Positions 34,785 to 64,000 of a stretch of DNA of 64,000 nucleotides are shown piece after piece. A program made the translations under genes and the position numbers. Positions within the stretch are counted from its first letter, which is position 1. The number at the start of each line of letters is the position of its first letter. This stretch comes from a virus: IMG/VR virus record IMGVR_UViG_3300022689_000130, positions 80,665 through 144,664 of that record; one strand, 5' to 3'. Below the pieces are notes generated by a model that saw only the letters and a list, made by a program, of their open reading frames with translations, was not told where the DNA came from and did not search any database.

Positions 34785-36353
34785 ATGTCAGCAAAACTAG
34801 ATGACAAAGATTGGCTAAAAGAGCCAAGCGGTTTTATCGCAAACAACGAACACAATATCCAGAACATGAAAGAGCTACTAGATAAAACTGGATGTGGCAT
34901 GTGTTTGGCAAAGTTTCGTCAGGTAACACTGCACCTGGGAACTGGCATGACACATAGTTGTCACCATCCAACACCACACAAGATCGATCCAAAGGAAGTG
35001 CAGAAGAATCCTAACTTGCTCTTCAACACACCTCGCCTCAAAGAGGCTCGCAGACAGATGCTCAACAACGAGCGTCCAGACGAATGCGACTATTGCTGGC
35101 GCATTGAAGACGACGGTAACACAAGCGACCGCGCCTTCAAAAGCTTGGAGCACTGGGCTCTACCAGACCACGACGAGATCACCGCGCTGGACGGCAGTGA
35201 AGACATCTTCCCCAGCTACCTTGAGGTCAGCTTTTCAAACGTATGTAACATGAAGTGTACATATTGTGGCCCAGAGTTTTCAAGCAAATGGGTAGAAGAA
35301 CTCAAGCAGTATGGCCCGCTTGAGGTGATGTCTGACACACCACACAAGCAATGGATCCAGGGTTATCAGGACTTGGATACATTAAACTACAAGCACAGAG
35401 AGTTCAATCCCTACATTGATGCGTTCTGGAAGTGGTTCCCCCGTGCCCTGCCCCACCTCAAGCACTATCGGATTACAGGCGGTGAACCGCTCATGAGCAA
35501 GGAAACGTTCAAGAGCATGGACTGGTTGATTGAAAATCCCAACGAAGATCTAGAGTTCAGCATCAACTCCAACTTTAGTGTGCCTGACAAGCTATGGGAT
35601 CAGTTCATCGAACGCCTTGAAGTGTTACGCTTTGACCGTGTCAAAAAAGTTACTATCTACACTAGCATTGAGGGCTGGGGCAAACGCGCGGAGTACGCCC
35701 GCACAGGACTGGATTTTGAACTGCTTCGTAAGCGTTACGAGCAGATCCTTGCAATGGGCAATGTGCGGTGTGTAATCATGGCCGCTTACAACATCTTCTC
35801 AATCACTAGTATGAAGGATATGCTCGAATGGGTGTATGAGATGAAGACCAAATACAATCCCAACAACTCAAGTGTTCACCTGGAAGAGAACACAGGATTT
35901 GAATTGGTGACAGGCAGCTATGGCGCCCGCCGTGATGCTAACCCTGAGCATCACGTTACAGCAGGCATTGACATTCCTTATTTGCGTAGTCCAGAACATC
36001 TGGACGCACAGTATTGTGACGCCGACATGGTTGAGCGTTATATGATACCTACAATGGACTTTATGGCCAGCCATGCAGCCAGCAGCGTGTGGGGAGACCA
36101 CCAAGGCTTTGAAAACTACGAGATTGAAAAGCTCAAGCGTATCATTGTCCACCGTATGTATTTCAATCGCAAGACACGAGACGACCAGGACAGCAGACAT
36201 GATATCATGAAAAACCGTGCCAAGTTTTACGACTTTGTAAATAGCATGGATAAACGACGAGGCACAAACTTCCTTGAGACTTTCCCTGAAATGACAGACT
36301 TTTACGAGCTATGCTGTGAGAGCAAACAAGCCTTGGTCAAAATCAACAGCTAA
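34785..36353 (+). CDS. Radical SAM protein 1 (N-terminal twitch-like, SCHHP type)
   Basis: 522 residues. The radical SAM CxxxCxxC is Cys154-158-161 (CNMKCTYC), with GGEP at 232-235 for SAM binding and a full partial TIM-barrel. Before it, a cysteine module (Cys37, Cys40, Cys59 in SCHHP, Cys101 and Cys104 in CDYCW) probably binds an auxiliary iron-sulfur cluster, as in the N-terminal-twitch radical SAM family. GC-richer and better matched in codon use than its neighbours. A close relative is the third radical SAM gene (37479). Substrate unknown; probably a sugar, peptide or nucleotide intermediate. Confidence 0.8.
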   Translation: MSAKLDDKDWLKEPSGFIANNEHNIQNMKELLDKTGCGMCLAKFRQVTLHLGTGMTHSCHHPTPHKIDPKEVQKNPNLLFNTPRLKEARRQMLNNERPDECDYCWRIEDDGNTSDRAFKSLEHWALPDHDEITALDGSEDIFPSYLEVSFSNVCNMKCTYCGPEFSSKWVEELKQYGPLEVMSDTPHKQWIQGYQDLDTLNYKHREFNPYIDAFWKWFPRALPHLKHYRITGGEPLMSKETFKSMDWLIENPNEDLEFSINSNFSVPDKLWDQFIERLEVLRFDRVKKVTIYTSIEGWGKRAEYARTGLDFELLRKRYEQILAMGNVRCVIMAAYNIFSITSMKDMLEWVYEMKTKYNPNNSSVHLEENTGFELVTGSYGARRDANPEHHVTAGIDIPYLRSPEHLDAQYCDADMVERYMIPTMDFMASHAASSVWGDHQGFENYEIEKLKRIIVHRMYFNRKTRDDQDSRHDIMKNRAKFYDFVNSMDKRRGTNFLETFPEMTDFYELCCESKQALVKINS

Positions 36354-37486
36354 TGCTACCATATGAACACATAAGACGCTTACACATTGAGGTAAGCAGC
36401 ATTTGCAATGCCGCTTGCCCTAACTGTCCACGAAATGTCCATGGCGGATATGTCCTGCCTGATCTCATAGAGCGGTCAGTGACGTTTGATGAGTTTAAAC
36501 AGATGTTTGCTGTTGATACAATTGTTCAACTTGAGCAGATTCGTTTTTGTGGCAACTATGGTGATCCGGTAAGTGCAAGAGACCTTCCACAAATTATAGA
36601 GTGGATTTACAGCTATAATCCAGACATACATATTGAGATTAACACAAATGGCGGTGCCCGTAGCACTTCATGGTGGGAAAGATTAGGTCGCCTCATGAAG
36701 GGTCACACTGGATTTGTTGTGTTCAGTGTTGACGGTTTAGAAGATACCAATCACATCTATCGTCGTGGTGTTGTGTGGAAGAAGCTCTATGCGAACATGG
36801 AAGCTTATGTGAAGGGTGGCGGTCGAGCAGTGTGGGAGTTTTTGGTGTTCCAGCACAATGAGCACCAAATTAATGAGGCACGAGAACTGAGTCGCCAGTT
36901 AGACTTTGACAAATTTCGCGTCAAGAAGCCTTTTGGTTTTAACGATAGCTATAAGAGCACACCATACATGCTGGTTTTGGATCGTGAAGGCAATTTTGAG
37001 AGAACATTGTGGCCGCGTGGTGTTGAGCCTGTTGAATTAGAATCACGTGACATGGACTTAGAGGCGTATCTCCGCGATCTCGCACTCGCACACAAGGCAG
37101 CATTTGAAGACCCTGAAGAACGTGAGATGTATTTTGAATACATGGACACTGCCCGCCCAACTGGAATTGACTGCATGAGTATCAGGGACAAAGAGATTTA
37201 TGTAGACAGTCAGGGTTACATGTATCCGTGTTGTTTCTTAGGTCACGGCGGTCAAATGCAGCGCGGCCGGGAAACATTATTTTTCCGCCGCTGGGTAACA
37301 AAGAATGTGGGATGGGATAACATCAGCCTGTTCAAACGCAGCGTGAAAGAAATTGCTGAAAGCGAATACTTTAGCTTGATTGAGCAAACGTGGGACAAGA
37401 CCCATCGCGAAGGCAAGATGGCAATGTGTTCGCTCATGTGCTCAAGCGACTGCGCCCGTAACACCATGAGGAATCTATATGACTAA
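36353..37486 (+). CDS. Radical SAM/SPASM-like protein 2
   Basis: 377 residues with the core at the very N-terminus, Cys18-22-25 (CNAACPNC), and a C-terminal cysteine region (MYPCCF, then CSLMCSSDC) that suits an auxiliary cluster, the arrangement of SPASM or twitch enzymes. The SAM-binding segment reads GNYGDP instead of GGEP. A paralogue is at 52095, sharing FSVDGL and the HNEHQ stretch. It overlaps the previous stop (TAATG at 36353) and the next gene starts inside it, so the three are one translated unit. Confidence 0.8.
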   Translation: MLPYEHIRRLHIEVSSICNAACPNCPRNVHGGYVLPDLIERSVTFDEFKQMFAVDTIVQLEQIRFCGNYGDPVSARDLPQIIEWIYSYNPDIHIEINTNGGARSTSWWERLGRLMKGHTGFVVFSVDGLEDTNHIYRRGVVWKKLYANMEAYVKGGGRAVWEFLVFQHNEHQINEARELSRQLDFDKFRVKKPFGFNDSYKSTPYMLVLDREGNFERTLWPRGVEPVELESRDMDLEAYLRDLALAHKAAFEDPEEREMYFEYMDTARPTGIDCMSIRDKEIYVDSQGYMYPCCFLGHGGQMQRGRETLFFRRWVTKNVGWDNISLFKRSVKEIAESEYFSLIEQTWDKTHREGKMAMCSLMCSSDCARNTMRNLYD

Positions 37487-38960
37487 ACGTAGTGCAACTA
37501 TAAATTGGATGGATACAGTTGTTAACAGTAAAAGTCGCACTTTCTGCGGCGCCAAGTGGTATAATGCAACTATCTGGCTAGGGAATGGTGCAACTGCTAG
37601 CTGTCACCATCCTCCACCTCACCAAATTGACGCAGAAGAAGTTCAGCGTAACCCTCGTGCACTGCACAACACTGAATACAAGAAGCTAGTGCGCAAACAC
37701 ATGCAAGAAGGGGTGCAAACTAAAGAATGTGACTATTGCTGGCGCATCGAGAACATGGACAGCAATGTGGTAAGTGATCGTTATTACAAGAGCAGCATCT
37801 ATTCTGAGGAAGAGCTGCAAGAGGCGTTTGACACGCCTTGGGATGCAGATATCAGCCTCAAACAGCTAGAAATTGCATTTGATAACAATTGTAACTTCGC
37901 TTGTTCTTATTGCAACGCAGGGTTCAGCACAACCTGGGCACATGATATCAACAAGAATGGTGCGTATCAGGACCTCACCAGCGATGGATGGGGTGCCTAT
38001 GCACACAATGGCAATTGGGCCCATCCATATGGAGTGACCAACAAGGACAACCCATATGTAGAGGCGTTTTGGAAGTGGTGGGAAAGCGAACTACAGCACA
38101 CATTGCGTGAGTTGCGTGTTACAGGTGGCGAAGCAACTGTAAGTCCGGACTTCTGGAAACTAGTTGCATGGTATGAGGCCAATCCTCAATGCCAGGTTGA
38201 GCTCAGTGTTAACACCAACCTGGGTATCAAGAAGAGACCTCTTGACAGGCTATGCAGACTTAGCCAAGAGATACCTACGTTTAACTTGTTTACAAGCAAC
38301 GAGAGCATGGGCAGCAATGCTGAATACATTCGTGACGGACTTGAGTGGGTAGCATGGCAAGAAAACCTGCGCTATGCAATGACACATGGACGCTTCCGCT
38401 ACATTCATGTCATGATGACAATCAACGCACTCTGCTTGGCTAGCTTTACTGACTTTCATGACTTCTTGCTAGACTTGCGTGAAGGTTCAGATACACGAAT
38501 TGAGTTCAGTCACAATATTCTTCGCTTTCCTAGCTTCCAAAGCATTACAACACTGCCCAGGCATCTAAGAGAGCAGCAGACAGAGGCGATCACAGCTTGG
38601 CTAGCGGATAACGAGCATCGTATGCAGCCACATGAGATCGATAGCTTCCACCGCACCATACGCTATGTGCAGGAGATTGATGAAGGACACAACATTGGCA
38701 ACTTGCACAGCAATTTAGAGAAGCGTCAACGAGACTTCCGTAACTTTTACGCACAGTATGACCGCCGTCGTGAAAAGAGCTTTGCACAAAGCTTTGCTAA
38801 CTGGCCCGAATTGGTTGAATGGTATGAAGGTGTAGACGGCCGCGCCAACGTAAATAAGATTGACGAACTGATTGTGGGTGATGCAACTGAATGGGGCCGC
38901 CCAATATTCGACGAAGTGCTCGCTGAAGCCCGAGACAAGAAAATAATTGATGATGAGTAA
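37479..38960 (+). CDS. Radical SAM protein 3 (SCHHP type)
   Basis: 493 residues. Cys138-142-145 (CNFACSYC) is the radical SAM motif; GGEA replaces GGEP in TGGEATV. The N-terminal module has Cys23, Cys42 (SCHHPPPH) and Cys84/Cys87 (CDYCW), nearly the same as in the gene at 34785, so the two are paralogues separated by the SPASM-like gene. The overlap with its neighbour is eight bases. A likely auxiliary-cluster enzyme acting on the same or a related intermediate. Confidence 0.8.
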   Translation: MTKRSATINWMDTVVNSKSRTFCGAKWYNATIWLGNGATASCHHPPPHQIDAEEVQRNPRALHNTEYKKLVRKHMQEGVQTKECDYCWRIENMDSNVVSDRYYKSSIYSEEELQEAFDTPWDADISLKQLEIAFDNNCNFACSYCNAGFSTTWAHDINKNGAYQDLTSDGWGAYAHNGNWAHPYGVTNKDNPYVEAFWKWWESELQHTLRELRVTGGEATVSPDFWKLVAWYEANPQCQVELSVNTNLGIKKRPLDRLCRLSQEIPTFNLFTSNESMGSNAEYIRDGLEWVAWQENLRYAMTHGRFRYIHVMMTINALCLASFTDFHDFLLDLREGSDTRIEFSHNILRFPSFQSITTLPRHLREQQTEAITAWLADNEHRMQPHEIDSFHRTIRYVQEIDEGHNIGNLHSNLEKRQRDFRNFYAQYDRRREKSFAQSFANWPELVEWYEGVDGRANVNKIDELIVGDATEWGRPIFDEVLAEARDKKIIDDE

Positions 38961-40104
38961 GACTAGATGCCCAATGCCGTTTGCAGGTTTTGATATTGAA
39001 ACAAACGGCACAGTGAAGCCGTGCTGCATTTATGAAGGCAGTATTGGCAACGTCAATGACGAGAACATTGACGATATTTGGCATGGCGATAGGCTCAAAA
39101 AGATACGCGAGGATTTAGAAGCAGGACATCGCATCCCTGGATGCCGTCAGTGCTGGGTAGAAGAAGAAAGCACCGGGTATAGCAAACGCATACGCGAGCA
39201 AGACTGGTTCCCTGACACAGTATACGATAACCCGCAAGTCAAACGATTGGATATTAAACTGGGCAATACCTGCAACCTCAAATGTCGCATATGCAACTAT
39301 GAGAGTAGCAGCATCTTCAACAGTGAGAACAGACAGATTGCCAGCCGCTTTCCAGATGCAAAAATCAACTTCATTGCAAATGACCGTGTGGACCGTTACA
39401 AGTGGTATCGTGATGAAGATTTTTGGCACGTTATTCTCAAGTATGGTCCTGAGATCGAACAGATTGATTTCATGGGTGGCGAGCCATTGTTGGATCGCAC
39501 ACACAAGCGCATCTTAGAGAAACTTGTTGAACAAGGACTGGCGCCAAACATCATCATCAACTATACCACAAACGGAACCATTGTTCCTGACTTTGAACTG
39601 CTACGCAACTTCAACAAGGTGCTGTTTACTGTGAGTGGCGACGCGATCGAGCGCCGCTTTGAATATAATCGCTATCCAGTGCGTTGGGCAGACTTCAAGA
39701 ACAACATATTTGACATACGTGCAAGTGCAGACAGCTTTCTTATCAGCTACAGCGTCAGCAGCTATAGTCTATTTGGAATTCCTGATGCACTTGACTATTA
39801 CATGGAGAACGGATATATAGTATGGTTCAACTATGTGCATTTGACTGAAGCCAGCAATGCACGTAACTTGCCGCCCGAGCTTAAGCAACAGTTTAGAGAA
39901 TTGGTCGCTGATCGCCACCGCGATGAGTGGCTATGGACACGAGCAAACATACAAGAGGTCTTGGACTTTATCGACGTTGATGACAACCCCAAACACTTCC
40001 AAGACTTTATTTACGATTGCAAATTGAGGGATCAATTCCGCTATCAAGATTTTAGAGATTACCTGCCAGAATATGCCCCCTACGCCGATCTTGCACAAGT
40101 GTAA
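38950..40104 (+). CDS. Radical SAM protein 4 (N-terminal twitch-like)
   Basis: 384 residues from the first of two adjacent ATGs inside the preceding stop. The N-terminus (CPMPFAGFDIETNGTVKPCC, then CRQCW) is a classical twitch/SPASM-like module: Cys7, Cys25, Cys26, Cys65, Cys68. The core is Cys108-112-115 (CNLKCRIC), followed by MGGEPLLD and TVSGD. Similar to genes at 41996, 54674 and 56790 in layout. Expected to abstract a hydrogen atom from a substrate and modify it; substrate is not visible. Confidence 0.8.
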   Translation: MMSKTRCPMPFAGFDIETNGTVKPCCIYEGSIGNVNDENIDDIWHGDRLKKIREDLEAGHRIPGCRQCWVEEESTGYSKRIREQDWFPDTVYDNPQVKRLDIKLGNTCNLKCRICNYESSSIFNSENRQIASRFPDAKINFIANDRVDRYKWYRDEDFWHVILKYGPEIEQIDFMGGEPLLDRTHKRILEKLVEQGLAPNIIINYTTNGTIVPDFELLRNFNKVLFTVSGDAIERRFEYNRYPVRWADFKNNIFDIRASADSFLISYSVSSYSLFGIPDALDYYMENGYIVWFNYVHLTEASNARNLPPELKQQFRELVADRHRDEWLWTRANIQEVLDFIDVDDNPKHFQDFIYDCKLRDQFRYQDFRDYLPEYAPYADLAQV

Positions 40105-40924
40105 CAACCAGAGCCGCACATTGATGATGACGTGTCTTTACAAAGGACACCTCTATGATCTCTATCGCGAATACAGTGCTGACATTGTGCGTAGCCATGA
40201 GGAATTTGCACAATTCAACAACTGGGACTATTTTGTTATGGGCGACGAGATCAACAACATTTACAGGCTTGAGTCCTGGCGTGATACAAACATTGATGCA
40301 CGTTGTGATTGCTTGGGAATGAACAAGTGGTATGCGATGAACTGGGTATTTGAGAATACTGACTATGATGAAATTCTGCTTATAGACTTTGACAGCAAGT
40401 TTATTTACAACACTGCATTAGACTTGGGAGACTGCGACATAAAAGCCACATATCTTACACTCAGCCCATACTATGATACTGTATGGTTCCTCTACTATTG
40501 CATGTATCGTGGTGTTACATTTGAGCAACTTAATCAGGCAGTGCCAAACAAGTTCAATACAGGGTTTATCAAGGTTCGTCGTGGATTTTTCACACAAGAA
40601 GACTTGGATAACTTTGTGGACTTTGCCTGCCAGACATTGAGTGATGTTAAATATAGCGAACGCAAAAGCTGGATACACATGAGCAACGCTGACATGGGAC
40701 GTATCCACGAAATACACAACACAACACTCACGCCATTTGATGAAGTGTTTCTAGTTTACCAGATTATGAAGCAACATCCTGTAATAGAACCATTTGACAA
40801 GAGATTTAATGTCAACAGAACTGAGCTTGTGGAGAGCAATACAGCGCATGTGCACTTCTGCGTGAACAAAGAGCGTGACATTCAAACCCTATGCGAGCCT
40901 GGCGTTGCGAAGTTTCTAAAATGA
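40073..40924 (+). CDS. Glycosyltransferase-like protein (nucleotide-diphospho-sugar type)
   Basis: Frame of 283 residues that starts inside the previous gene; an alternative ATG at 40124 gives a shorter protein beginning MMTCLYKGHLYD, which may be the real one because nothing upstream of 40073 resembles a ribosome site. The DxD is in DEILLIDFDSKF, and FNTGFIKVRRGFF matches the acceptor half of capsule-type galactosyltransferases. It overlaps the next radical SAM gene by ATGA. It sits between radical SAM genes and may glycosylate their product. Confidence 0.55.
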   Translation: MPPTPILHKCNNQSRTLMMTCLYKGHLYDLYREYSADIVRSHEEFAQFNNWDYFVMGDEINNIYRLESWRDTNIDARCDCLGMNKWYAMNWVFENTDYDEILLIDFDSKFIYNTALDLGDCDIKATYLTLSPYYDTVWFLYYCMYRGVTFEQLNQAVPNKFNTGFIKVRRGFFTQEDLDNFVDFACQTLSDVKYSERKSWIHMSNADMGRIHEIHNTTLTPFDEVFLVYQIMKQHPVIEPFDKRFNVNRTELVESNTAHVHFCVNKERDIQTLCEPGVAKFLK

Positions 40925-41946
40925 GTGCCCCACAAAATCTCGAACAGTATCTTAAGGATCACATCTGTTTCAAGCCTTGGGATAGTATAAGTATTGAGCC
41001 TAATGGTGATGTAATCAATTGTTGTATGCCTTGGCTACCTAAACCCATTGGTAACTTGTTTGAGAACACTATGGACGAAATCCTCAGCAGCGAGGCAAGC
41101 CAAGAAGTTCAAGCTAGTATCCTGGATGGAAGTTATCGTTACTGCAACAAGGACATGTGCAGTGAGATTTATGGTGGTCGTTTGCCTAAACGACCACAAG
41201 AGATGAAACTACCGCAACGGCCCTACAAGATTCGATTTAACAACGATAGAAGTTGCAATCTATGGTGCCCTAGCTGTCGCTTGCGACGTGTGCAGCACAA
41301 CGAGGGTCCGGCATATGAGAAGGCTAAGTGGCTAAACGACAGAATTTATGAATTCATGTTGGAACAAGCCTCCCGTGGCCCAGTTGAGATTTGGGTAACA
41401 GGAAGCGGCGACGCAATTGGCAGCCGCATCTACCGTGACATGCTCAAACGCATTGACGGTTCGGAGTTTCCAGACCTTAAAATCAATCTCATGACCAATG
41501 GCGTATTGTTTACTCCCAAGACTTGGGAAAGCCTGCATCGTATCTGGAACAATATCACACTGGTTGATATCAGTGTGGACGCAGGCACAAAAAGCGTCTA
41601 CCAAAAGATGCGACCACCTGGCAAGTGGGATCAACTACTCAGCAACGTCAAATATTTAGGTGAGTGTGCGCAAGAATATGACAACATCAATATCAACTAC
41701 GGCTTTGTGGTGCAACATGGAAACTATACAGATATGGTCAACTTTGTGCATACGTTTAGCCAATTTGAGCGTTACCACTTGCTCAACTTCACGTTAGTTA
41801 ACGACTGGAATACATGGGAAGATTTCGGAAGCCATGCAGTATGGAAGCGCAGCCATCCAGAACATGAAGCGTTCTTAGAAATGGTTCGCCGTCCAGAATT
41901 AGTTGATGAACGAGTGTTTATGGGCTCGCTTAAACGTTTTCTCTAA
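40921..41946 (+). CDS. Radical SAM protein 5 with altered SAM-binding motif
   Basis: 341 residues from the ATG at 40921, coupled by ATGA to the previous gene. Core Cys112-116-119 (CNLWCPSC). In the position of GGEP stands GSGD, an unusual variant. The N-terminus has the twitch-like pattern (CFKPWDSISIEPNGDVINCC, then CNKDMC). The remaining barrel (MTNGV; DISVDAGTKS) is intact. Unknown substrate. It ends the first rightward array; a perfect inverted repeat follows. Confidence 0.75.
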   Translation: MSAPQNLEQYLKDHICFKPWDSISIEPNGDVINCCMPWLPKPIGNLFENTMDEILSSEASQEVQASILDGSYRYCNKDMCSEIYGGRLPKRPQEMKLPQRPYKIRFNNDRSCNLWCPSCRLRRVQHNEGPAYEKAKWLNDRIYEFMLEQASRGPVEIWVTGSGDAIGSRIYRDMLKRIDGSEFPDLKINLMTNGVLFTPKTWESLHRIWNNITLVDISVDAGTKSVYQKMRPPGKWDQLLSNVKYLGECAQEYDNININYGFVVQHGNYTDMVNFVHTFSQFERYHLLNFTLVNDWNTWEDFGSHAVWKRSHPEHEAFLEMVRRPELVDERVFMGSLKRFL

Positions 41947-41964
41947 TCACTTGTAAATGAACGC

Positions 41965-41993
41965 AACCTTTTTGACGAATCGTCAAAAAGGTT
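41965..41993. terminator. Inverted repeat between convergent genes; possible two-way terminator
   Basis: Arms 41965-41978 and 41980-41993 are perfectly complementary (14 bp). The gap lies between two genes that meet tail to tail, which fits a two-way stop, but there is no T-run after the hairpin on either strand; the Ts are within the stem. Confidence 0.55.
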
Positions 41994-41995
41994 GA

Positions 41996-43264
41996 TCACT
42001 CCACGTCTCCAAAATCTATGTTGCATAGCAAATCAGCAAGTTCAGGCAAACTACGTTTCCAGTCAAGGTCGGCAGTTTCGTCAAACATATCTAGTCGTAT
42101 CTTAGCGTGTTTCATTTCATGTAGCCAGTTTTTATTGTTGCCGTCGCTTTCATACATGAAGTTAATGCAGTTCTGCATTGCATCAGCAGCACTCTTCACG
42201 TCAGCTTTGAGGAAACCATCGCGACGTTCTGTCAACATTTCCTTGAGTGTGTCTTTGTAATCAGGCGGAAGATGCTTAAGGCTGAACAGTGTGGGGTAGG
42301 TAACAAAGTTGGTATAGAGGGTGTAGCAATCTTCAATCCAACGATTATCAACGCACCACTGCACAAAGTCTGGAAACTGGTGGATATTGAGAATGCTCAC
42401 CGTAACACTGGGATAAATGAACAGGTTGAGGTCTGGACATTCGAACTTGAGGAAGTTGAAGTTGTCGCGTGTCTTATCCCACTTGGCGCCAGTGCGGATA
42501 TACTCAAATACATCATCCATGCCGTCAATGCTAGCCGCAACAGTGATATGGTGGAAGTGCTTCCACCACTCCACGATGTTCTTTCGCTTGTAAGTGATTG
42601 AGCTCATGTTGGTGTTATAGCTGAGGTGAACCTCTGGTGCATTGCCAATCTCAATGAGGTGCTCGAGTGTGTAATAATGTTGCTTTTCCATTAAGGGTTC
42701 GCCACCAGCCCAATACATGCGGTCTACAGTGCTGAGAAATGGCTTAATTTTGTCAAATTCGTCAGCACGTATGAATTTTTGAATGTTGCTTGTATCAGTG
42801 CCAGGGCTCTGACGCTTGATAATTTCCTTCTGCTCATCATACCAAGTGCTACTGAGTTCATGTCCACAAGTTCGGCACTTGAGATTGCAGTGGTTGCTGA
42901 AGCGCAGATCTACATAGCTGAGGCGTATATTGTCAATGCTACCGTCCTTATTTGTATCTGAGATTTCCTTTTCGTAACGATGCAAGTAAGCTTTGTTCAT
43001 TTGCGATCGCATACTGTCCAAACCAGCACGTTCTCTGTCAAAGCAGATGCGGCAAGCATCATGTTCACCATCAGCAAGCATTGTCCGGCGCATTTCTTTC
43101 ATGCCCTCGCTGTTCATGGCATCAAGAAGATTGACGCCATCACGCTTGAGATTGCTAAACTTTTTACGGTCAAGGCGATACATGTCTGTCATACAGCATG
43201 GCAAGACTTGGCCTGTTGGATACAAGTGTAAATGCATCCATGGATAAACACATAATTTGCTCAT
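41996..43264 (-). CDS. Radical SAM protein 6, reverse orientation
   Basis: 422 residues. The N-terminal module is Cys5, Cys23/24 and Cys71/74 (LCVYPWMHL; LPCCMTD; CRICF), the core Cys126-130-133 (CNLKCRTC), with AGGEPLM and a substrate-binding AASIDG segment. It is the only radical SAM gene on the minus strand in the window and has its own divergent late-type promoter. A decayed N-terminal copy lies at 46361-46185. Substrate unknown; the layout is the same as for the genes at 54674 and 56790. Confidence 0.8.
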   Translation of the reverse strand: MSKLCVYPWMHLHLYPTGQVLPCCMTDMYRLDRKKFSNLKRDGVNLLDAMNSEGMKEMRRTMLADGEHDACRICFDRERAGLDSMRSQMNKAYLHRYEKEISDTNKDGSIDNIRLSYVDLRFSNHCNLKCRTCGHELSSTWYDEQKEIIKRQSPGTDTSNIQKFIRADEFDKIKPFLSTVDRMYWAGGEPLMEKQHYYTLEHLIEIGNAPEVHLSYNTNMSSITYKRKNIVEWWKHFHHITVAASIDGMDDVFEYIRTGAKWDKTRDNFNFLKFECPDLNLFIYPSVTVSILNIHQFPDFVQWCVDNRWIEDCYTLYTNFVTYPTLFSLKHLPPDYKDTLKEMLTERRDGFLKADVKSAADAMQNCINFMYESDGNNKNWLHEMKHAKIRLDMFDETADLDWKRSLPELADLLCNIDFGDVE

Positions 43265-43287
43265 GGGGTTCCTAACATTTGTTGCGT

Positions 43288-43295: not shown

Positions 43296-43309
43296 TGCTG
43301 ACTTAATTA

Positions 43310-55867: not shown

Positions 55868-56790
55868 CGAATTTTTTAGACGATAGCAATTTGGATCGAA
55901 TTGATCCTGCTTTAGAGCAGATATTTGATCAATATTCCCTAACCTATTTTCCAAATTGGAAATTATCTGAGGTTCCTGTTCAGCGTTGTTCTGATGACAA
56001 ATATATATCAGATAACCAAGTCTTGGATTATTATCGAAACTTGCATTATGAGCTAATACGTTTTCGTGATTATCCAAATCGTGTAATCGAGGGCATGGTA
56101 GATTTTAGCTTTTGGCTTGTTACGAGCATGAGTCAAAAAGGCATACAATCGCCACTCAACATGTATCATTGGACAAATATTCATCCGGGGAAAAAGAGAT
56201 ACATCATATCAAACTATATTCAATTTGACGATATTCCTATTTTGGTTCAGCATAGGCCGAATGATGTTCAAAAAGATGGCGGAATCCCCGTCACGTCTGT
56301 TGATCAATTGATAGCACTTTATGGACACAATGTAAGCATTAAGCTGAGAAAGAAGTCTGATGAACTTCTTGTCGAATGTTCATGGCATGGAGAAACACAA
56401 AAACGTGATCGTAATGGTTATGACAATTGGTATAGGGCGGCAGCTGAAAGCGTATCTGAAGAAAACATTTTGTTGCCATACCTGCTTGAACATGGATTGA
56501 GAGTCAAAACTGATGTTAAAAGTTACAGCATAAATACCGGTGTGTTTAAAACACATGCATCTCGTGATTTAGAAGAGTCAGGGTTTTTCCTTTCAGTCCC
56601 AGCTTTGGATTATTTAAATTATGATTTATGGAAGCTTTATTTCCATTTTGATCCGCGTGTTGGAATTAAACGCTGCAAGACTACTGGTATTGAAATACAC
56701 AATGAATTTGGCGATCCAAATTGGGTTGTGGATAATTTAGACTTTAAACGAACATTAAATAGACCATGGTTGCATGATCCGGAGAAATAA
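55864..56790 (+). CDS. Unknown protein (308 aa) between radical SAM genes
   Basis: 308 residues from the ATG at 55864 (ATGA with the previous gene); a TTG at 55858 is also in frame. I recognise no family: no cysteine motif, no membrane segment. Charged and aromatic, with a central WTNIHPGKKRYIISNYI segment and a C-terminal FHFDPRVGIKRCKTTGIEIH stretch. Its TAATG overlap with the next gene makes it part of the same translated unit. A substrate-handling or structural partner is conceivable. Confidence 0.55.
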   Translation: MTNFLDDSNLDRIDPALEQIFDQYSLTYFPNWKLSEVPVQRCSDDKYISDNQVLDYYRNLHYELIRFRDYPNRVIEGMVDFSFWLVTSMSQKGIQSPLNMYHWTNIHPGKKRYIISNYIQFDDIPILVQHRPNDVQKDGGIPVTSVDQLIALYGHNVSIKLRKKSDELLVECSWHGETQKRDRNGYDNWYRAAAESVSEENILLPYLLEHGLRVKTDVKSYSINTGVFKTHASRDLEESGFFLSVPALDYLNYDLWKLYFHFDPRVGIKRCKTTGIEIHNEFGDPNWVVDNLDFKRTLNRPWLHDPEK

Positions 56791-58211
56791 TGACTAAAAA
56801 AGCACCAAGCGAAACCTTTTGTATTCTTCCTTGGATTCATTTATCAACGAGGCCGTCTGGAGAAATGCGGGTGTGCTGCACTGCGAACGCTAGCAGCGTT
56901 GGACCCACAAACGATAAAGAGCACGGCGGGCAAGTTGGCGTCCTCAAAGATGAAATGGGGCGTCCAAACAATCTTAACGTGAGTGATTTCCAAACAGCGT
57001 GGAATTCAACTTACATGCGAAATGTTCGTAAGCAAATGCTCGCAGGTGAAAAACCGCCTAGCTGTCTCAAGTGCTATAAAGAAGAAGACGCCGGACATAA
57101 TTCAAAGCGTATGTGGGAAACACGATATTGGAGCGAACGCTTTGATATTGATCAACTGGTTGAAGAAACAAATGAGGATGGATCAATTCCGCCAAAACTT
57201 CGTTACATTGATTTGCGCTTTGGAACAAAGTGTCAACTGGCATGTGTGATGTGCTCACCGCACGATTCATCAGGATGGATCAAAGAGCACACTAAAATGT
57301 TTCCGCAAGTGCAAAATGAGTCTTTGAAGGAAACAATGCAATGGCGAGATAAGGGATCTATTAACGGTAGTTCATATAACTGGCACAAAAACAATCCAGT
57401 GTTTTGGAAGCAGTTTAACGAACAAATTCCAAACATGGCACAGCTTTATTTCGCAGGCGGCGAATCATTGATCATTGAGGAACACTATGAAATACTTGAA
57501 GAAGCAATTCGTTCAGGTCATGCAAAAGACTTGGAACTTCGTTACAACTCAAATGGAGTTGAATGGCGAGAGGATTTATTTGATCTATGGCGAGAATTTA
57601 GGTTGGTGCGTTTCCATTACTCTGTAGACGATATTGGTGCACGAAATGAATACGTGCGTTACCCAAGCAAGTGGGAACGTACCGAAGAAGTATTTCACAT
57701 CTTAGACAACGAAACAAGTGACAACGTAGAAATAACAATTGCTTGCGCAGTGCAAGCACTCAACATCTATTATATTCCTGACTTCATTAAGTGGAAGCTA
57801 ACACAAGGCTTTCGTAAAATCAACATGTGGCCGTTTGGCGCGGGCGGCATCAACTATCACTTTGTATATCACCCACCACACCTCAACGTTAAAAGCTTGC
57901 CTGCATGGTTCAAAGACGAAGTAGATCGCAAATATGAGGACTTTATTCCGTGGTGGGAAGAGAACTGGGAGCTCGGTATTCCTGAATGGCATCGTGGTAA
58001 AGTAACACAAGAACAGTGGCGTGAAGCGGGCTATGGGATCAAGCGTCTACGGGGTATGGTAAATTTCATGAAGAGTGAAGATTGGTCAGTGCGTATGCCA
58101 GAGTTTCAAGAATACATCAGGCTGATTGATCGAACACGCGGCTTGGATTTTGCCACTGTGTATCCAGAGATGAAAGATATTTTGAATGAACAGAACTTAA
58201 AGAATGTTTGA
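56790..58211 (+). CDS. Radical SAM protein 10 (N-terminal twitch-like)
   Basis: 473 residues. N-terminal module FCILPWIHL, then VCCTAN, then CLKCY; core Cys148-152-155 (CQLACVMC), AGGESLI in place of GGEP, and the RFHYSVDDIG strand. The best match inside the window is the gene at 54674. The region after the core is longer. It overlaps the next gene by eight bases. Substrate unknown; the repeated use of this layout suggests several related reactions in one pathway. Confidence 0.8.
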   Translation: MTKKAPSETFCILPWIHLSTRPSGEMRVCCTANASSVGPTNDKEHGGQVGVLKDEMGRPNNLNVSDFQTAWNSTYMRNVRKQMLAGEKPPSCLKCYKEEDAGHNSKRMWETRYWSERFDIDQLVEETNEDGSIPPKLRYIDLRFGTKCQLACVMCSPHDSSGWIKEHTKMFPQVQNESLKETMQWRDKGSINGSSYNWHKNNPVFWKQFNEQIPNMAQLYFAGGESLIIEEHYEILEEAIRSGHAKDLELRYNSNGVEWREDLFDLWREFRLVRFHYSVDDIGARNEYVRYPSKWERTEEVFHILDNETSDNVEITIACAVQALNIYYIPDFIKWKLTQGFRKINMWPFGAGGINYHFVYHPPHLNVKSLPAWFKDEVDRKYEDFIPWWEENWELGIPEWHRGKVTQEQWREAGYGIKRLRGMVNFMKSEDWSVRMPEFQEYIRLIDRTRGLDFATVYPEMKDILNEQNLKNV

Positions 58212-59523
58212 ACAATTACACTGTCCAATGAGCTATGCAGTTTATAAATTCCAGCCGGAGATCGGCGACTTTTCTGCATGTTGTGATGCAACAAGCTATA
58301 AATTTGATGCCAAGTTGTTTGATGAATTAGGCGGCGATTATTTTGAGAAACACCCAAAACTAGTTGAACGAAAGCAAGCATTGTATGATAATATCAAACA
58401 TAGCGACTGCTCACAATGCTGGATAAAGGAAGAGCAAGGGCTCAATTCAATGAGAATGGAATTAGGACCCCACCAGCCTGAATTATTCAATAACAGAACA
58501 CTTGACATTAACTCTGCATACCCTAGTAGATTTGAATTGTGGATGAACTCTACTTGTAACTTAGGTTGCTTTATGTGCCACATAGGAAATTCAAATACGC
58601 TTCGAAAGATTTGGTATACAGACTTTGATTCATACGGTAACGACGGCAAAGGTTACGATGTGTATATCAATGAAAAGCAATATACAAGAGAGAATTATCA
58701 GCCTAAATATACAGAAGCAATGTTGAATTTTATTGTTAAACATATAAAGAATTTAGAGTCATATGCATTAAACATTGCGTATTTAGGAGGAGAACCAACG
58801 CTGCATCATGAAATGTATGAACATGCTGACCTATTCATTGAGGCAGGCCGAGAAGCAATTAAAGCAGGTAAAGAATTAAAAATTGAAATCACAACAAATG
58901 GCACCAGTAAAGATAAACTGAATGAGCGATTCTATCGCATGTATGAAAGGTATAAGCAAGCTGGGTGGTCCACACGTATTATGGTTAGCCAAGACGGTGC
59001 TAATGAATATGCACAAGTCAGACACGGAGCAGACTTTCAGCAAATTGCACAAAACTATGGTAATTGGTTAAAACCAGACTCGGTAGTCGATGAAGTTACT
59101 AGCTTTACAGTTGTGAGTGCAATCAATCTACCATATATTGATCAAATGGCAGACTATATCAATGACGCAGTTAGAAATAACTATAGAGGTAACAAAAAGA
59201 TAGCAATTCGTTTTAACACGCTTATTGACCCGAAATGGATGAGAGTTGAAAATTTACCCAGGCATTATGCCGAGTCTAGCATATCTCATGCAAGACGTGT
59301 ATTCACTGAATTACAAGAAGATTACCCTAATCTAAAATACAATTATTCATTGTTTGAAAATATCGCAGAAACTCTCAAAGAAACTATTCAACCAGACAAA
59401 GTAGAGAATTTTTTTGAACGCATAGATTACACTAACAGTATCTATCAAAAAACATACCCAGAATGGGACTTTTACAAGCAATTCCCATTTCTGACAGAAT
59501 ACAGAAAAGAATATGGTATTTAA
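58204..59523 (+). CDS. Radical SAM protein 11 (N-terminal twitch-like)
   Basis: 439 residues. N-terminal Cys7, Cys26/27 and Cys69/72 (CPMSYA; ACCDAT; CSQCW), core Cys118-122-125 (CNLGCFMC), YLGGEPTL and MVSQDGANEY. It is of the same general layout but less similar to the others, with Lys- and Asn-rich segments in the C-terminal half. Its codon use is somewhat more AT-rich than the gene that follows. Confidence 0.75.
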   Translation: MFEQLHCPMSYAVYKFQPEIGDFSACCDATSYKFDAKLFDELGGDYFEKHPKLVERKQALYDNIKHSDCSQCWIKEEQGLNSMRMELGPHQPELFNNRTLDINSAYPSRFELWMNSTCNLGCFMCHIGNSNTLRKIWYTDFDSYGNDGKGYDVYINEKQYTRENYQPKYTEAMLNFIVKHIKNLESYALNIAYLGGEPTLHHEMYEHADLFIEAGREAIKAGKELKIEITTNGTSKDKLNERFYRMYERYKQAGWSTRIMVSQDGANEYAQVRHGADFQQIAQNYGNWLKPDSVVDEVTSFTVVSAINLPYIDQMADYINDAVRNNYRGNKKIAIRFNTLIDPKWMRVENLPRHYAESSISHARRVFTELQEDYPNLKYNYSLFENIAETLKETIQPDKVENFFERIDYTNSIYQKTYPEWDFYKQFPFLTEYRKEYGI

Positions 59524-59526
59524 CAA

Positions 59527-60795
59527 ATGGGCCTTTGCGCAGTAGACGACAAAAACGAAAAACAATTGATGGTGATATGGGACCTTGGGCGCCGCTGCAC
59601 GTTCGCTTGCTCATACTGCCCACCACATAGAAAGAACAACTGGAGTGATACAGCTAGTTATGATGAACTGGTAAAGACTGCTGACGCACTAGAACGTTAC
59701 AGTGAAATTTACAACCGTCACCGTAACGAACCTTTCCGTGTTGCTGCTAGCTTTACCGGCGGCGAGCCTACAGTCAATCCGGCATTTTTTCGCTTCTTGG
59801 AATACTTACAAGAGAAATACCCACATTGGAAGCGAACTTTAACAACTAACGGTTTCTATTCAGATCGTAAGCTACAAACTGTGATGAAGAACACCAACTT
59901 TACCACAGTAAGTTATCATTGCGAAAGCACTGACACAAACAAAGCGCAAGTGCGCCGTAATCTTCAAACCATGCTTGATGCTGGATATGGATTCAAGATT
60001 AACATTATGTTCCACGAGCGTCCTGAATATTATCAAGAATGTATTGACCTTGCGCAATGGTGTGATGACAACGGTGTGATGTATACCCCGCGTGTTATTG
60101 GAGACCAGGGCGACATCAAGCAAGGTCTTAAAGACAAAACAGTGCACACCTATACTGAAGAGCAGGTAGCATGGATGAAGCGTTACTGGGATGCAAAGCG
60201 ATCAGGAGACACACGACCAGCTCACACCGCTAGTCAGAAGCCACGTGGAGCACAGGCCCCTGAGAGTGCAATGGCTATGGCAACCCAGCAGCCCAAGAAG
60301 GTGGTTGGTCAGAACATTGGCCGTCCGTGCTGCGGTGGCCGCCAGCTTGATCTCAAAGTTGACGATGAGTGGAGCGTGGGAAGCTTTGTGGAGAACAATA
60401 ACTTCCAGGGCTGGAGTTGTATGATCAACTGGTATTTTCTCTACATCCATCAAGAGATTGACAAGATTTGGCACCACCAGACTTGTCAGGTAAATATGGA
60501 CGGCAACGTAGGTCCTATCTGCAAAGTTAGCGAGTTTGACGAATATTGTGACCGGATAGATGCACAATTTGCCACTGGTGGCATACCTTTCATCCGTTGT
60601 CCCAAGACACATTGCGGTTGTGGTTTATGTGTGCCAAAAGCCAAGAACGACAACTTAGCGGAGTCTATCTTCCGCTATCATGCGCCAGGCGTCGAGCCAG
60701 AGTTTATGGAGCAACAGCAAAACGTAAACATGGGCGGCAGCCTCAAGGCCTTGGTATACAAATTTGATGAGGAAAACGGAAATGAAACTGTCTGA
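59527..60795 (+). CDS. Radical SAM protein 12 with long C-terminal cysteine region
   Basis: 422 residues. Core near the N-terminus, Cys24-28-31 (CTFACSYC), with TGGEPTV. The C-terminal third has many cysteines in pairs or clusters: RPCCGG, SCMINW, TCQVNMDGNVGPIC, CPKTHCGCGLC, probably one or more auxiliary clusters. A Gln/Ala/Pro-rich linker (about residues 232-265) separates the two parts. It overlaps the start of the PP-loop gene by 14 bases. Confidence 0.75.
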   Translation: MGLCAVDDKNEKQLMVIWDLGRRCTFACSYCPPHRKNNWSDTASYDELVKTADALERYSEIYNRHRNEPFRVAASFTGGEPTVNPAFFRFLEYLQEKYPHWKRTLTTNGFYSDRKLQTVMKNTNFTTVSYHCESTDTNKAQVRRNLQTMLDAGYGFKINIMFHERPEYYQECIDLAQWCDDNGVMYTPRVIGDQGDIKQGLKDKTVHTYTEEQVAWMKRYWDAKRSGDTRPAHTASQKPRGAQAPESAMAMATQQPKKVVGQNIGRPCCGGRQLDLKVDDEWSVGSFVENNNFQGWSCMINWYFLYIHQEIDKIWHHQTCQVNMDGNVGPICKVSEFDEYCDRIDAQFATGGIPFIRCPKTHCGCGLCVPKAKNDNLAESIFRYHAPGVEPEFMEQQQNVNMGGSLKALVYKFDEENGNETV

Positions 60796-61480
60796 TACTT
60801 ACGGACAAACAATTGATTTTGAAATCCCCGAGCAGCACACACGAATCGGTGTCAACTGTTCAGGTGGCGCAGATAGCGCCATTTTGCTTTATATAATAGC
60901 AGATTATCTCAAGCAGAACAATAGAACAGATGTCGAACTCAACGTGCTCAGTTGTGCAAACGATAAAAAGCATCGGTGGAACGTGCGCAAAGCAGCCGAT
61001 GTCATCAACTATACGATTGACAAACTAGATTGGAATCAATTTGGATGCCATTATGCATACTATCGTGATGTGCAAGCTGAAGAATATTTCCACGAGTTTG
61101 AAATGAAAATGTTTAAAGATGACAGAATATCATTCTTGATCAGCGGCGTGACTGCCACACCAAAAATTGATGCCGTTGTTGAAAACAGCAAGGGTGTAAT
61201 GGTTGATCTTCGTGAGCATGAAGATTGTCTTGGTAACCGCGATCCTAACAAACAGCGTCCTCTTTTGAATGTGTCTGGACATTTCTACACACCATTAACC
61301 AACGTTGATAAACGATTTGTTGCTGACATGTATGATCATTATGATGTGCGTGACATGTTCTATTTGACTCGTAGCTGTGAAGCTATTCCAGATGGCCGTT
61401 ATGATCCAGACTTTGAGCAACACCCTTGTGGTGAATGTTGGTGGTGTCTTGAACGCAAGTGGGCGTTTGGAGAGTTTTAA
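60782..61480 (+). CDS. PP-loop ATPase, QueC-like in outline
   Basis: 232 residues from ATG 60782. The PP-loop is Ser27-Gly-Gly-Ala-Asp-Ser32 (CSGGADSAILL), which activates a substrate by adenylation; a four-residue-spaced Cys set near the C-terminus, CGECWWCLERKWAFG, resembles the zinc site of 7-cyano-7-deazaguanine synthase (QueC). The other residues of the QueC family cannot be checked here, so a related N-type ATP pyrophosphatase is equally possible. It lies between radical SAM genes, and QueE (a radical SAM enzyme) normally accompanies QueC, but none of the neighbours is obviously QueE. Confidence 0.65.
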   Translation: MKLSDTYGQTIDFEIPEQHTRIGVNCSGGADSAILLYIIADYLKQNNRTDVELNVLSCANDKKHRWNVRKAADVINYTIDKLDWNQFGCHYAYYRDVQAEEYFHEFEMKMFKDDRISFLISGVTATPKIDAVVENSKGVMVDLREHEDCLGNRDPNKQRPLLNVSGHFYTPLTNVDKRFVADMYDHYDVRDMFYLTRSCEAIPDGRYDPDFEQHPCGECWWCLERKWAFGEF

Positions 61481-62698
61481 GTGACTCGCTATGTGTGCAG
61501 TAAGATGTTTACAGATGTAAACATCAAGTTCCCCTATGAAACAGTCAAAAACTGTTGTAAGAGTAATGATTATCAGCTAACTCTTGAAGAAATGCAAGAG
61601 CTAGAACAACGTGGCGAAAACATCTTCACACACAATCGCGAATATGTACGACGCAAGCGCAGCATGTTATTTGACAATCGCTTGCCAGAAAACGGCTGCG
61701 ACACCTGCATACATGCCGAACCAAACAGTTTGTTTCGTAGTTGGAACAGGTGGGGCGACTGCAAAATTGATGCTGAAGAAATTTTAAAGAAAGACAACTT
61801 TAACGTCTATGAATTTGTATTGTCCAGCGCCTGTGATCTCAAATGTGTTTATTGTGCACCTAAGGATTCAACTAGCTGGGCTAAAGAACTCGGCGTACCT
61901 ATCAACCGCGGCCGTGACGAATGGAAAGAAACCGTAATACGTCATTTTATGCAACATTTACGTGAAAAAGAATACGATCCTAAACAAACGTATTGGTTCT
62001 TTTTCAGCGGTGGTGAACCCACATATAATCCTGAAACACTACCAATGATTGAAGAGATTATCAGTATCGTCCCACATGCTACGATCGTAATCAGTACAAA
62101 TGGTAATACCAAATCCAACGTATTGGAACGTTATTTGCAGGCCGTGCGCAGCAACCAAAAAACACAATGGGTCTTTGATTGTAGTGTTGACAGCATTGGA
62201 GACCGTGCTGAAGCCATTCGCTATGGCCTAGATTGGAAACGGTTCAATTACAATCTCAAAACCATTATGCGTGAATCCAATACTCGCGTTCGAATCAGCC
62301 CAACAGTAAATTTATATGCATTACCTACAATGTTGGAATTCGTTCAGCACTTTCATGATCTATTTCTAGAAATGAATCAATCAACTCAAGGGTTGTTCAA
62401 TTTTAACATGGTTCAAGAGTCACCTCTTAGCCCGTGGAGTGCCCCGCCACATTATGCTGAACTGTTAGAACCAGCAGTTGAGTATTGTGAGCAACATAAT
62501 ATTAAATTTGGCATACATTTGCGCAGTGTGCAACGATTGATTGGTAGCAAAATAAATGCTAAAACGTGGCAACAAGTAGAATCACAATGGCAATATTTTC
62601 AACGTATGCGTCCGGAAATAGACTGGGCCAGACTATTCCCGCACGTACCAGATATAATTGAGGAATTGAAAAATGAAGATCCTGATCTCAGGCAATAG
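61481..62698 (+). CDS. Radical SAM protein 13 (N-terminal twitch-like)
   Basis: 405 residues from a GTG start directly after the previous stop. N-terminal module Cys6, Cys25/26, Cys73/76 (YVCSKMF; KNCCKSN; CDTCIH), core Cys118-122-125 (CDLKCVYC), FSGGEPTY, and DCSVDSIGD. It shows no clear C-terminal cluster. Substrate unknown. The next gene starts inside its last 26 bases. Confidence 0.8.
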   Translation: MTRYVCSKMFTDVNIKFPYETVKNCCKSNDYQLTLEEMQELEQRGENIFTHNREYVRRKRSMLFDNRLPENGCDTCIHAEPNSLFRSWNRWGDCKIDAEEILKKDNFNVYEFVLSSACDLKCVYCAPKDSTSWAKELGVPINRGRDEWKETVIRHFMQHLREKEYDPKQTYWFFFSGGEPTYNPETLPMIEEIISIVPHATIVISTNGNTKSNVLERYLQAVRSNQKTQWVFDCSVDSIGDRAEAIRYGLDWKRFNYNLKTIMRESNTRVRISPTVNLYALPTMLEFVQHFHDLFLEMNQSTQGLFNFNMVQESPLSPWSAPPHYAELLEPAVEYCEQHNIKFGIHLRSVQRLIGSKINAKTWQQVESQWQYFQRMRPEIDWARLFPHVPDIIEELKNEDPDLRQ

Positions 62699-63239
62699 TG
62701 AATACGGATTGAGCGCAGCCGTCGGCCGCAAGTTTCCAGGACAGGTTGAATTCGCCAGTCGTAGAACGGGATACGACCTAACGTCACATGATGGCAGACA
62801 AGCGTTCTCCGAGCTCTCTACGCAGGCTGATGTAGTCATTGTATGTGCAGCACTGTGGCAGTTTCAACAGACAGTGCTGCTAGACAGCGTGAGTAAGGCG
62901 TGCCGTGCAACAGGTGCGGCACCACACATTATTGTGGTAGGCAGCACAACAGACCGTGTCAAGGGCGGCAAAGCATGGCTTTACAACGCTGAGAAAAAAG
63001 CCCTACGTGACTACAGCAACACACTAGCTATAGGCGGGGTATGGGATAACAACTTGCCCAAAGTCAGTTATATAAGCTTTGGCACGTTGAGCAATAATCA
63101 AGAAAAGCATCCTGATCGACGATGTTTAGATATCGATGAGGCAGCAAAATATATTAAGTGGTTGATAGAGCAGCCAAAATGTGTTACGATAAATGAAATA
63201 AGCATCGATCCGATGCAAGGTGATATTTGGTATGAATGA
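62673..63239 (+). CDS. SDR-like oxidoreductase
   Basis: 188 residues, starting inside the previous gene with a GAGGA ribosome site. A nucleotide-binding loop GNSEYGLSAAVGR (about residues 7-19), then VVIVCAALWQ, then Ser91 in GSTTD, then Tyr104-x-x-x-Lys108 (YNAEK), the catalytic Ser-Tyr-Lys of short-chain dehydrogenases. Somewhat shorter than typical SDRs (about 250). It could oxidise or reduce a sugar or other intermediate. The stop overlaps the start of the following radical SAM gene. Confidence 0.65.
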   Translation: MKILISGNSEYGLSAAVGRKFPGQVEFASRRTGYDLTSHDGRQAFSELSTQADVVIVCAALWQFQQTVLLDSVSKACRATGAAPHIIVVGSTTDRVKGGKAWLYNAEKKALRDYSNTLAIGGVWDNNLPKVSYISFGTLSNNQEKHPDRRCLDIDEAAKYIKWLIEQPKCVTINEISIDPMQGDIWYE

Positions 63240-64000
63240 TGATTTAAAATGGAGTGAATACGATTTCACAAAAATTCCATATGATGATTTAGTAAGTGTT
63301 GGGCAACGCACAATGCTCTATCGCGACATCTTTACCGTGAGCTGGTTACTAGGTCGCTTTTGTAATTATCGTTGCAGCTATTGCTGGCCCTATGCCCGCA
63401 GCAACACCAAGGACCATCGTCCAACCAAATTGTGTTTGAAAACTATTGACGAGATTAAGAGGCAAGCACGTGAAAACGGATTTAACTCATTCCATTTCAG
63501 TCTTTCTGGAGGAGAGCCGACATTCCATCCTGGCTACCTTGATATTCTCAGTCATCTTGCAGATGATGTCGCCAATACCAACTACACCAGCATACACAAA
63601 ACCAGCAACTGCTCTAGACCAATCCGCTGGTATGAGGACTTCGTTGAGCGCGCCAAGCCATTCCACCGCGCCAGCATTACTGCGAGCTTGCACACAGAGC
63701 ATGTTGACACACTAAAGAAGATGCAAGACTTTGCTGATAAGCTCGTCCTATGCCAAGAGCACGATGTTCAAGTGACTATCAACATGGTTATGGTTCCGGA
63801 ATGGTTTGAGCGCGACTGGGAGAACGCCTTGTTCTTCCACGAGCAAGGCATCAACGTAACACTCAAGCCGCAGAGCGATCCTACCGCTAGCCGTGTTGTT
63901 GATGGCTATACTGATGAGATGCTACAGCGTTTGTGGAATGGTATGCCGCAACGCGCTTATACAGAAATGAAACGCAAGTGGGAAGGCAGGCCTAAACCAG
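63232..64000 (+). CDS. Radical SAM protein 14 (cut by window edge)
   Basis: The frame runs from ATG 63232 (overlapping the previous stop) to the edge with no stop, 256 codons visible. Core Cys44-48-51 (CNYRCSYC), LSGGEPTF, HKTSNC and an intact barrel start, similar in layout to the genes at 53698 and 59527 (core near the N-terminus, no twitch module before it). The C-terminal part, where an auxiliary cluster would lie, is outside the window. Confidence 0.75.
   Translation, partial: MNDDLKWSEYDFTKIPYDDLVSVGQRTMLYRDIFTVSWLLGRFCNYRCSYCWPYARSNTKDHRPTKLCLKTIDEIKRQARENGFNSFHFSLSGGEPTFHPGYLDILSHLADDVANTNYTSIHKTSNCSRPIRWYEDFVERAKPFHRASITASLHTEHVDTLKKMQDFADKLVLCQEHDVQVTINMVMVPEWFERDWENALFFHEQGINVTLKPQSDPTASRVVDGYTDEMLQRLWNGMPQRAYTEMKRKWEGRPKP

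Follow-up and report, generated by a model that had tools for sequence, protein, structure and literature searches.

A 64,000-base stretch of the IMG/VR virus record IMGVR_UViG_3300022689_000130 (bases 80665-144664 of 144,664; the window), from a large aquatic phage, carries, directly behind tail genes, an array of 14 genes for radical S-adenosylmethionine (radical SAM) proteins that contains a conserved gene cassette. Named here, like all genes, by their start positions in the window, the members of the conserved core are the radical SAM genes 52077, 56790 and 63220, the GT-A-like gene 48054 and the methyltransferase-like gene 48742. The same core is found, with its order kept, in other viral contigs, and it recurs in chromosomes of Bdellovibrionota. 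It is quite possible, if short of probable, that the array is a conserved phage operon for tailoring a glycan on the host surface or on the virus particle, the product and chemistry being suggested by the company the genes keep.

An initial sequence-only reading of this DNA had described 13 complete radical SAM genes and one cut-off gene within a single block, and all 14 open reading frames (ORFs) were confirmed in place. A PF04055 search of the whole record returned exactly 14 matches, all within the block (E = 4.8e-17 to 2.1e-4), and 12 of these proteins exceed the curated cut-off. Likewise, among the ORFs of the record the CxxxCxxC motif occurs only in the 14 radical SAM genes; in letter-shuffled proteins it was met by chance in a mean of 0.25 ORFs and a maximum of 2 (200 runs). 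The last gene is truncated where the record itself stops, not merely the window, so that the complete array may hold more than 14 radical SAM genes. Alternative starts are possible at 40891/40921, 52077/52095, 53698/53746 and 54620/54674. The block also contains ∼ 17 other genes. A check for RNA structure at the array start gave no signal (z 0.43), and promoter and terminator scans gave no clear excess over shuffled sequence.

The phage setting of the array is equally clear, since the same record encodes portal, terminase, DnaB-type helicase, ribonucleotide reductase, baseplate hub and tail proteins. The description of the phage as 'T4-like', however, is valid in the broad sense only, because the terminase resembles (∼ 50%) those of large phages such as Agrobacterium phage Atu_ph07.

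The three layouts originally distinguished, with a twitch-like module before the core, with the core first and a SPASM-like end, and with the core first and other C-terminal cysteines, hold on profile analysis. The NCBIfam family N_Twi_rSAM (NF033640), in which an N-terminal twitch is followed by the core, has a curated cut-off of 170 bits; this is passed at full length by six of the proteins (34785, 37479, 38950, 41996, 54674 and 56790; 288-425 bits), while 58204 (152.6 bits), 61481 (150.4 bits) and, more weakly, 40921 (56 bits) fall below it. In all nine twitch-first proteins the match starts at the N-terminal twitch, whereas in the five core-first proteins, which lack this element, it covers the core part only (27.8-42.6 bits). 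The family is one of sequence, to which no reaction has been assigned. The SPASM-like ends proposed for 36353 and 52095 are less certain, as the PF13186 score of the former is borderline (21.1 bits against a cut-off of 21.5) and that of the latter is partial and weak (14.4 bits). Protein 53746 has a weak QueE match and also matches the viperin family NF038283, but with 50.6 bits against a cut-off of 180 and over residues 4-117 only, and the pVip match in PADLOC is likewise confined to the radical SAM core; viperin-type antiviral enzymes were thus ruled out.

Duplication within phages had been raised as a possible origin of the array. The highest identity between any two of the 14 proteins is 32%, against 30-88% to their closest counterparts in other phages, and every one of them is nearer to some gene of another phage than to any neighbour in the array. 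Recent tandem duplication was therefore ruled out, and the set is old and non-redundant.

Two scans of viral contigs yielded 92 loci for comparison. All 45 related viral records counted bear 5-22 radical SAM genes, a figure that describes clustering and not prevalence among phages, as the records were found through a radical SAM query. From 48054 to 63220, its right half, the array is collinear with contigs of different metagenomes, and the nearest viral contigs match 56790 at 81-84% identity (52077 and 63220, Table 1). Moreover, among the 40 viral loci that have both 52077 and 56790, the order 48054-48742-52077-56790-63220 is kept, for those genes present, in 36. One record of 202.7 kb (G010) is collinear with the window over ∼ 50 kb, from the fibre gene through the last radical SAM gene. 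The distance from the same structural-region genes to the start of the array is 2.6-4.5 kb in at least 13 loci, which also have a 33765-type protein. The first half of the array varies among phages, and for several genes of 36353-45577 collinear relatives are few or absent. A search of 50,697 phage records gave at most distant matches to 56790, 52077, 63220 and 48054, and no isolate phage with the cassette.

One scan of bacterial and archaeal genomes showed relatives mostly in Bdellovibrionota. There the core recurs in the chromosomes beside other radical SAM genes at 34-66% identity (48742, 36-47%; 48054/33765, 34-45%; radical SAM genes, Table 1). In eight Bdellovibrionota genomes, chosen because they carry the core and with contigs of up to 936 kb, 8-20 N_Twi radical SAM genes per genome were counted; a Halobacteriovorax genome without the core has seven, and all 14 control genomes lack them. 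Within 5 kb of N_Twi radical SAM genes, GT2 glycosyltransferases are sixfold commoner than expected (17 observed against 2.8, six Bdellovibrionota genomes), and carbamoyltransferase homologues are found near the radical SAM genes here too. A second radical SAM cassette, of five genes and without a copy in the window, is collinear between viral contigs (L033, L034 and L060) and two Bdellovibrionota genomes (L192 11754-16723 and L196 11447-17621), with 39-58% identity for most genes. The bacterial arrays differ from that of the phage in their scattered orientation, in their added GT2 enzymes and HTTM-like membrane proteins, and in the patchy occurrence of the 56790 orthologue, which is present in 5 of 114 sampled Bdellovibrionota genomes. 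In a tree of 56790 the phage sequences form one group (87/100), and a single bacterial clade is not rejected by the approximately unbiased test (p 0.129); the tree is compatible with transfer in either direction, the acquisition of a chromosomal set from the phage's own host included. The proposal of a phage system therefore stands in so far as the block is conserved in viral contigs and lies beside structural genes, but the core is not confined to phages.

In three of the Bdellovibrionota arrays (L194, L195 and L198), membrane proteins that by eye look of HTTM type recur beside a ∼ 160-residue partner. Eight further loci (L115, L139, L140, L173 and L176-L179), from metagenome-assembled genomes filed as Gammaproteobacteria, Neisseriaceae, Rickettsiales, Pelagibacter, Betaproteobacteria and Verrucomicrobia, resemble the phage contigs of this group; they are probably phage contigs mis-binned with bacteria and were set aside from the bacterial matches.

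Table 1. Genes of the radical SAM array and its block, by position in the window. L numbers denote collected loci; percentages are sequence identities.
Position	Strand	Feature	Evidence
33765-34754	+	GT-A-like, paralogue of 48054; first gene before array	Homologues in 50 loci; invariant DxD when aligned with 48054
34785-36353	+	Radical SAM, N-terminal twitch	NF033640 322.9 bits; 61% to viral L110
36353-37486	+	Radical SAM, core first, SPASM-like end	PF04055 32.7 bits; SPASM 21.1 bits
37479-38960	+	Radical SAM, N-terminal twitch	NF033640 287.9 bits
38950-40104	+	Radical SAM, N-terminal twitch	NF033640 293 bits
40073-40924	+	Possible glycosyltransferase-like protein	DFD motif by eye
40921-41946	+	Radical SAM, divergent N-terminal twitch (start 40891 possible)	NF033640 56 bits; PF04055 35.5 bits
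41996-43264	-	Radical SAM, N-terminal twitch; sole minus-strand radical SAM gene	NF033640 358.3 bits
43316-44083	+	SGNH-hydrolase-like protein	GDSFTYG by eye
44595-45329	+	Sulfotransferase-like, paralogue of 49710	PF13469 E 0.0045 (below cut-off); 26% to 49710
45326-45577	+	Truncated copy of carbamoyltransferase N-terminus	74% over 68 residues to 46428
46428-47912	+	Carbamoyltransferase, NodU/TobZ type	PF16861 161.5 bits, PF02543 114.9 bits, both over cut-off
47909-48013	+	34-residue peptide ending DPFIYD	Homologues beside carbamoyltransferase or GT-like gene, many viral loci
48054-48767	+	Predicted GT-A-fold protein, conserved core	AlphaFold pLDDT 90.6; in 37 viral loci
48742-49713	+	Class I SAM methyltransferase-like (predicted fold), conserved core	AlphaFold pLDDT 88.7; in 32 viral loci
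49710-50408	+	Sulfotransferase-like protein	Paralogue of 44595; no Pfam match
50405-50632	+	S75, conserved 75-residue protein	Related ORF in ∼ 25 viral loci
50562-51308	+	SGNH-like protein (by eye)	54% to L094; TTG start lies over S75, a later start being probable
51305-52102	+	SGNH-like/DUF6473-like	PF20078 E 0.0022, below cut-off
52077-53177	+	Radical SAM, conserved core, core first, SPASM-like end (ATG possibly 52095)	77-80% in several viral contigs; 41-48% in Bdellovibrionota
53174-53725	+	Possible 2-oxoglutarate (2OG)-Fe(II) oxygenase	Weak: homologue in L094 with PF13640 E 0.059
53698-54687	+	Radical SAM, core first (start 53746 possible)	PF04055 47.8 bits
54674-55867	+	Radical SAM, N-terminal twitch	NF033640 383.1 bits; 42-51% in ∼ 30 of 80 viral loci
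55858-56790	+	Protein without assigned family	Homologues in 5 viral loci only; no Pfam/PHROG match
56790-58211	+	Radical SAM, conserved core, N-terminal twitch	NF033640 424.9 bits; at least 50% in 64 viral loci; 53-62% in Bdellovibrionota
58204-59523	+	Radical SAM, N-terminal twitch	NF033640 152.6 bits
59527-60795	+	Radical SAM, core first, Cys-rich C-terminus	PF04055 44.5 bits; 61-75% in 12 viral loci
60764-61480	+	QueC-like N-type ATP pyrophosphatase, C-terminal CxxCWWCxER	PF06508 24.7 bits (cut-off 22)
61481-62698	+	Radical SAM, N-terminal twitch	NF033640 150.4 bits
62673-63239	+	Short-chain dehydrogenase (SDR)-like (by eye)	57-84% in viral contigs; no Pfam match
63220-64000	+	Radical SAM, conserved core, core first, cut by record end	83-88% to nearest viral contigs, of which L094/L043 85-88%; 54-66% to Bdellovibrionota

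Judged by sequence, the most solid identities among the other genes of the block are those of the carbamoyltransferase (46428) and of the QueC-like protein (60764). In the latter, the PP-loop SGG and DS are invariant in 20 homologues and the C-terminal CxxC is also conserved. The structural model of 48054 gave 28 PDB matches at E ≤ 0.001, all of them glycosyltransferases (best E 4.7e-5), and its DxD motif (D57, D59) is invariant across 30 homologues. The predicted fold and this motif together suggest a GT-A-like protein, for which sugar transfer is a prediction. A related observation is an 813-residue protein (L109 3216-5657) that apparently consists of several tandem GT-A-like units, the last being a 48054 homologue. 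The model of 48742 matched mostly class I SAM-dependent enzymes in the PDB, consistent with its predicted methyltransferase-like fold, and a PDB sequence search with it returned nothing. Other assignments are weak or were made by eye, namely sulfotransferase-like for 44595 and 49710, SGNH-like for 43316, 50562 and 51305, SDR-like for 62673 and 2OG-oxygenase-like for 53174. Neither 40073 nor 43316 has a Pfam or PHROG match, or a homologue among the collected loci. The short ORF 45326-45577 is overlapped by a methyltransferase-like ORF and reads as a decaying duplicate of the carbamoyltransferase N-terminus.

The reading of the array as a glycan-tailoring operon is suggested by the carbamoyltransferase, GT-A-fold, sulfotransferase-like and SGNH-like neighbours and by the position behind the tail genes. 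In the infected cell, the phage would make a non-redundant set of radical SAM enzymes that perform C-H chemistry on glycan units, with dehydrogenation, epimerisation, deoxygenation and C-C or C-S bond formation as candidate reactions. The GT-A-like proteins would transfer the units, which the carbamoyltransferase and the methyltransferase-, sulfotransferase- and SGNH-type proteins would finish. The product might be a remodelled host envelope glycan, leading to superinfection exclusion or receptor masking, or alternatively a glycan attached to the fibre proteins of the phage itself, in which case the constant location of the array behind the tail genes would be explained. Iron-sulfur (Fe-S) assembly factors, which would be expected if the Fe-S enzymes act during infection, are present in five of the six array-bearing records above 200 kb; this record, which is incomplete, yielded none. 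Also in favour of a glycan are the NDP-sugar-epimerase-type proteins (PF01370) that 16 of 28 related viral records encode, the kept order of the core, and the GT2 enzymes and carbamoyltransferase homologues near the radical SAM genes of Bdellovibrionota.

Several observations tell against a glycan product. A search of this record for PF01370 epimerases came back empty, neither a polymerase nor a flippase was recognised among the genes of the block, and canonical GT2 enzymes are absent from the record and present in just 3 of 28 related phages. The GT-A matches of 48054 have modest TM-scores (∼ 0.4), a PDB sequence search with this protein returned nothing, and the sulfotransferase-like and SGNH-like assignments are, as said above, weak or made by eye. 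In addition, most characterised SPASM and twitch enzymes act on peptides, and a small ORF, S75, upstream of a SPASM-type radical SAM gene is the arrangement expected of a peptide system. It is doubtful, though conceivable, that the array embodies a radical SAM-built surface chemistry new to science, used by two unrelated kinds of attacker of bacteria, large phages and predatory-lineage Bdellovibrionota, for a decorated adhesin or envelope polymer and moved between them as a cassette.

The peptide substrates of most SPASM and twitch enzymes and the placing of S75 lead to the main rival, a modification of peptide or protein resembling that of ribosomally synthesised and post-translationally modified peptides (RiPPs), in which the radical SAM enzymes would crosslink or epimerise S75 or the tail or fibre proteins and the other enzymes would add groups. 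SPASM and twitch enzymes are mostly peptide maturases, and one of these, SkfB, is the nearest PDB sequence (E 5.6e-11). Moreover, S75 usually lies directly or one gene upstream of a 52077- or 63220-type core radical SAM gene (∼ 25 viral loci), and the array follows fibre genes. However, S75 has no cysteine and is evenly conserved from end to end, lacking a variable core, which speaks against a classical precursor peptide, and no copy was seen in the Bdellovibrionota loci examined. Pfam scans of most of the other block genes and several of the radical SAM proteins, with no model specific for the RiPP recognition element (RRE) run, found no PqqD/RRE, peptidase or exporter, and the neighbours are of carbamoyl-, glycosyl- and methyltransferase types. 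Peptide modification is regarded as rather unlikely, while still a serious candidate.

A diffusible small molecule or a modified nucleotide, with DNA hypermodification and counter-defence chemistry among the options, would make sense of the QueC-like pyrophosphatase and of the weak QueE and viperin-like matches, and some carbamoyltransferases are known to act on phage DNA. The viperin match is nevertheless one to the core only, there is no PADLOC match for the QueC-like protein or for the non-radical SAM core proteins, the block sits with tail genes and far from replication genes, and to our knowledge 14 distinct radical SAM enzymes are more than any nucleotide pathway employs; this explanation is unlikely. 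It is also unlikely that unrelated auxiliary genes have merely collected in a hypervariable island and share no pathway. Such an island would account for the variable first half of the array, and a five-gene radical SAM module is indeed swapped among Campylobacter phages (PMC2853527), but the second half keeps its order across metagenomes, with core radical SAM genes at up to 80-88% identity, and the same core stands together in Bdellovibrionota. That the genes share a biosynthetic function is inferred. Finally, an assembly artefact that fused host and phage DNA has almost no likelihood. The end of the record does fall inside the array, but the ∼ 50 kb of collinearity with the independent 202.7-kb record and the multiple radical SAM genes in every related record counted show that the array is not peculiar to one joined assembly, and a chimera was ruled out by the independent collinear contigs.

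Radical SAM-rich islands are already known in phages from reports of 2010, 2017 and 2020 (PMC2853527, PMC5332604, PMC7029224), and the array is to that extent not undescribed, as had been supposed. The literature searched yielded no previous account of this cassette or of its sharing with Bdellovibrionota, nor did searches on Bdellovibrio and radical SAM give anything relevant by title and abstract; as far as this literature goes, the core with its conserved gene order is new, and so is its presence in Bdellovibrionota. The T4-type Campylobacter phages CP220 and CPt10 carry 11-12 radical SAM genes without demonstrated function, five of them in an exchangeable module (PMC2853527). Similarity to CP220 is weak, however (52077 query, 23.6%, E 4e-6), 54674 and 56790 match none of the Campylobacter phages, and the CP220 modules carry a putative glycine amidinotransferase. 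The large T4-like ocean phage TARA_ERS488813_N000010, with 12 radical SAM genes and Fe-S assembly genes (PMC5332604), possibly belongs to the same broad group; its description gives the count and an Fe-S interpretation, but no cassette, product or Bdellovibrionota link. In pelagimyophages, a host-recognition cluster in a hypervariable island combines tail fibres, glycosyltransferases and radical SAM cassettes (PMC7029224). This same mixture is in keeping with a glycan product, although the radical SAM cassettes are mentioned there in passing and Pelagibacter phage Mosig, the one isolate record found, has 23% similarity to 52077.

Such islands have been noted since 2010 without explanation. A core that can be named and ordered reduces the puzzle to a small testable set, comprising the three radical SAM proteins, the GT-A-like and methyltransferase-like proteins and S75. 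If the product were a new surface glycan or a modified fibre, it would represent new enzymology and add another level to the interaction of phage with host or of predator with prey.

Some further features were observed. The isolate Vibrio phage K566 (L200 11705-29072) has four annotated radical SAM genes with a gene for PagP (lipid A acylation) nearby. B12-binding radical SAM proteins occur in or beside the arrays of viral loci (L022/L043 12296-14149) and of Bdellovibrionota (L122 6278-7822). Within the record (G000), an ORF of 3582 residues separates the baseplate region from the fibre genes (window 14964-25712; G000 95628-106376). Before the window, a terminase-like ORF that covers the family profile in part (G000 47895-48983) overlaps a 359-residue ORF (48931-50010), and the terminase gene of the record may be split; a homing-endonuclease-like ORF is located at G000 57478-59127.

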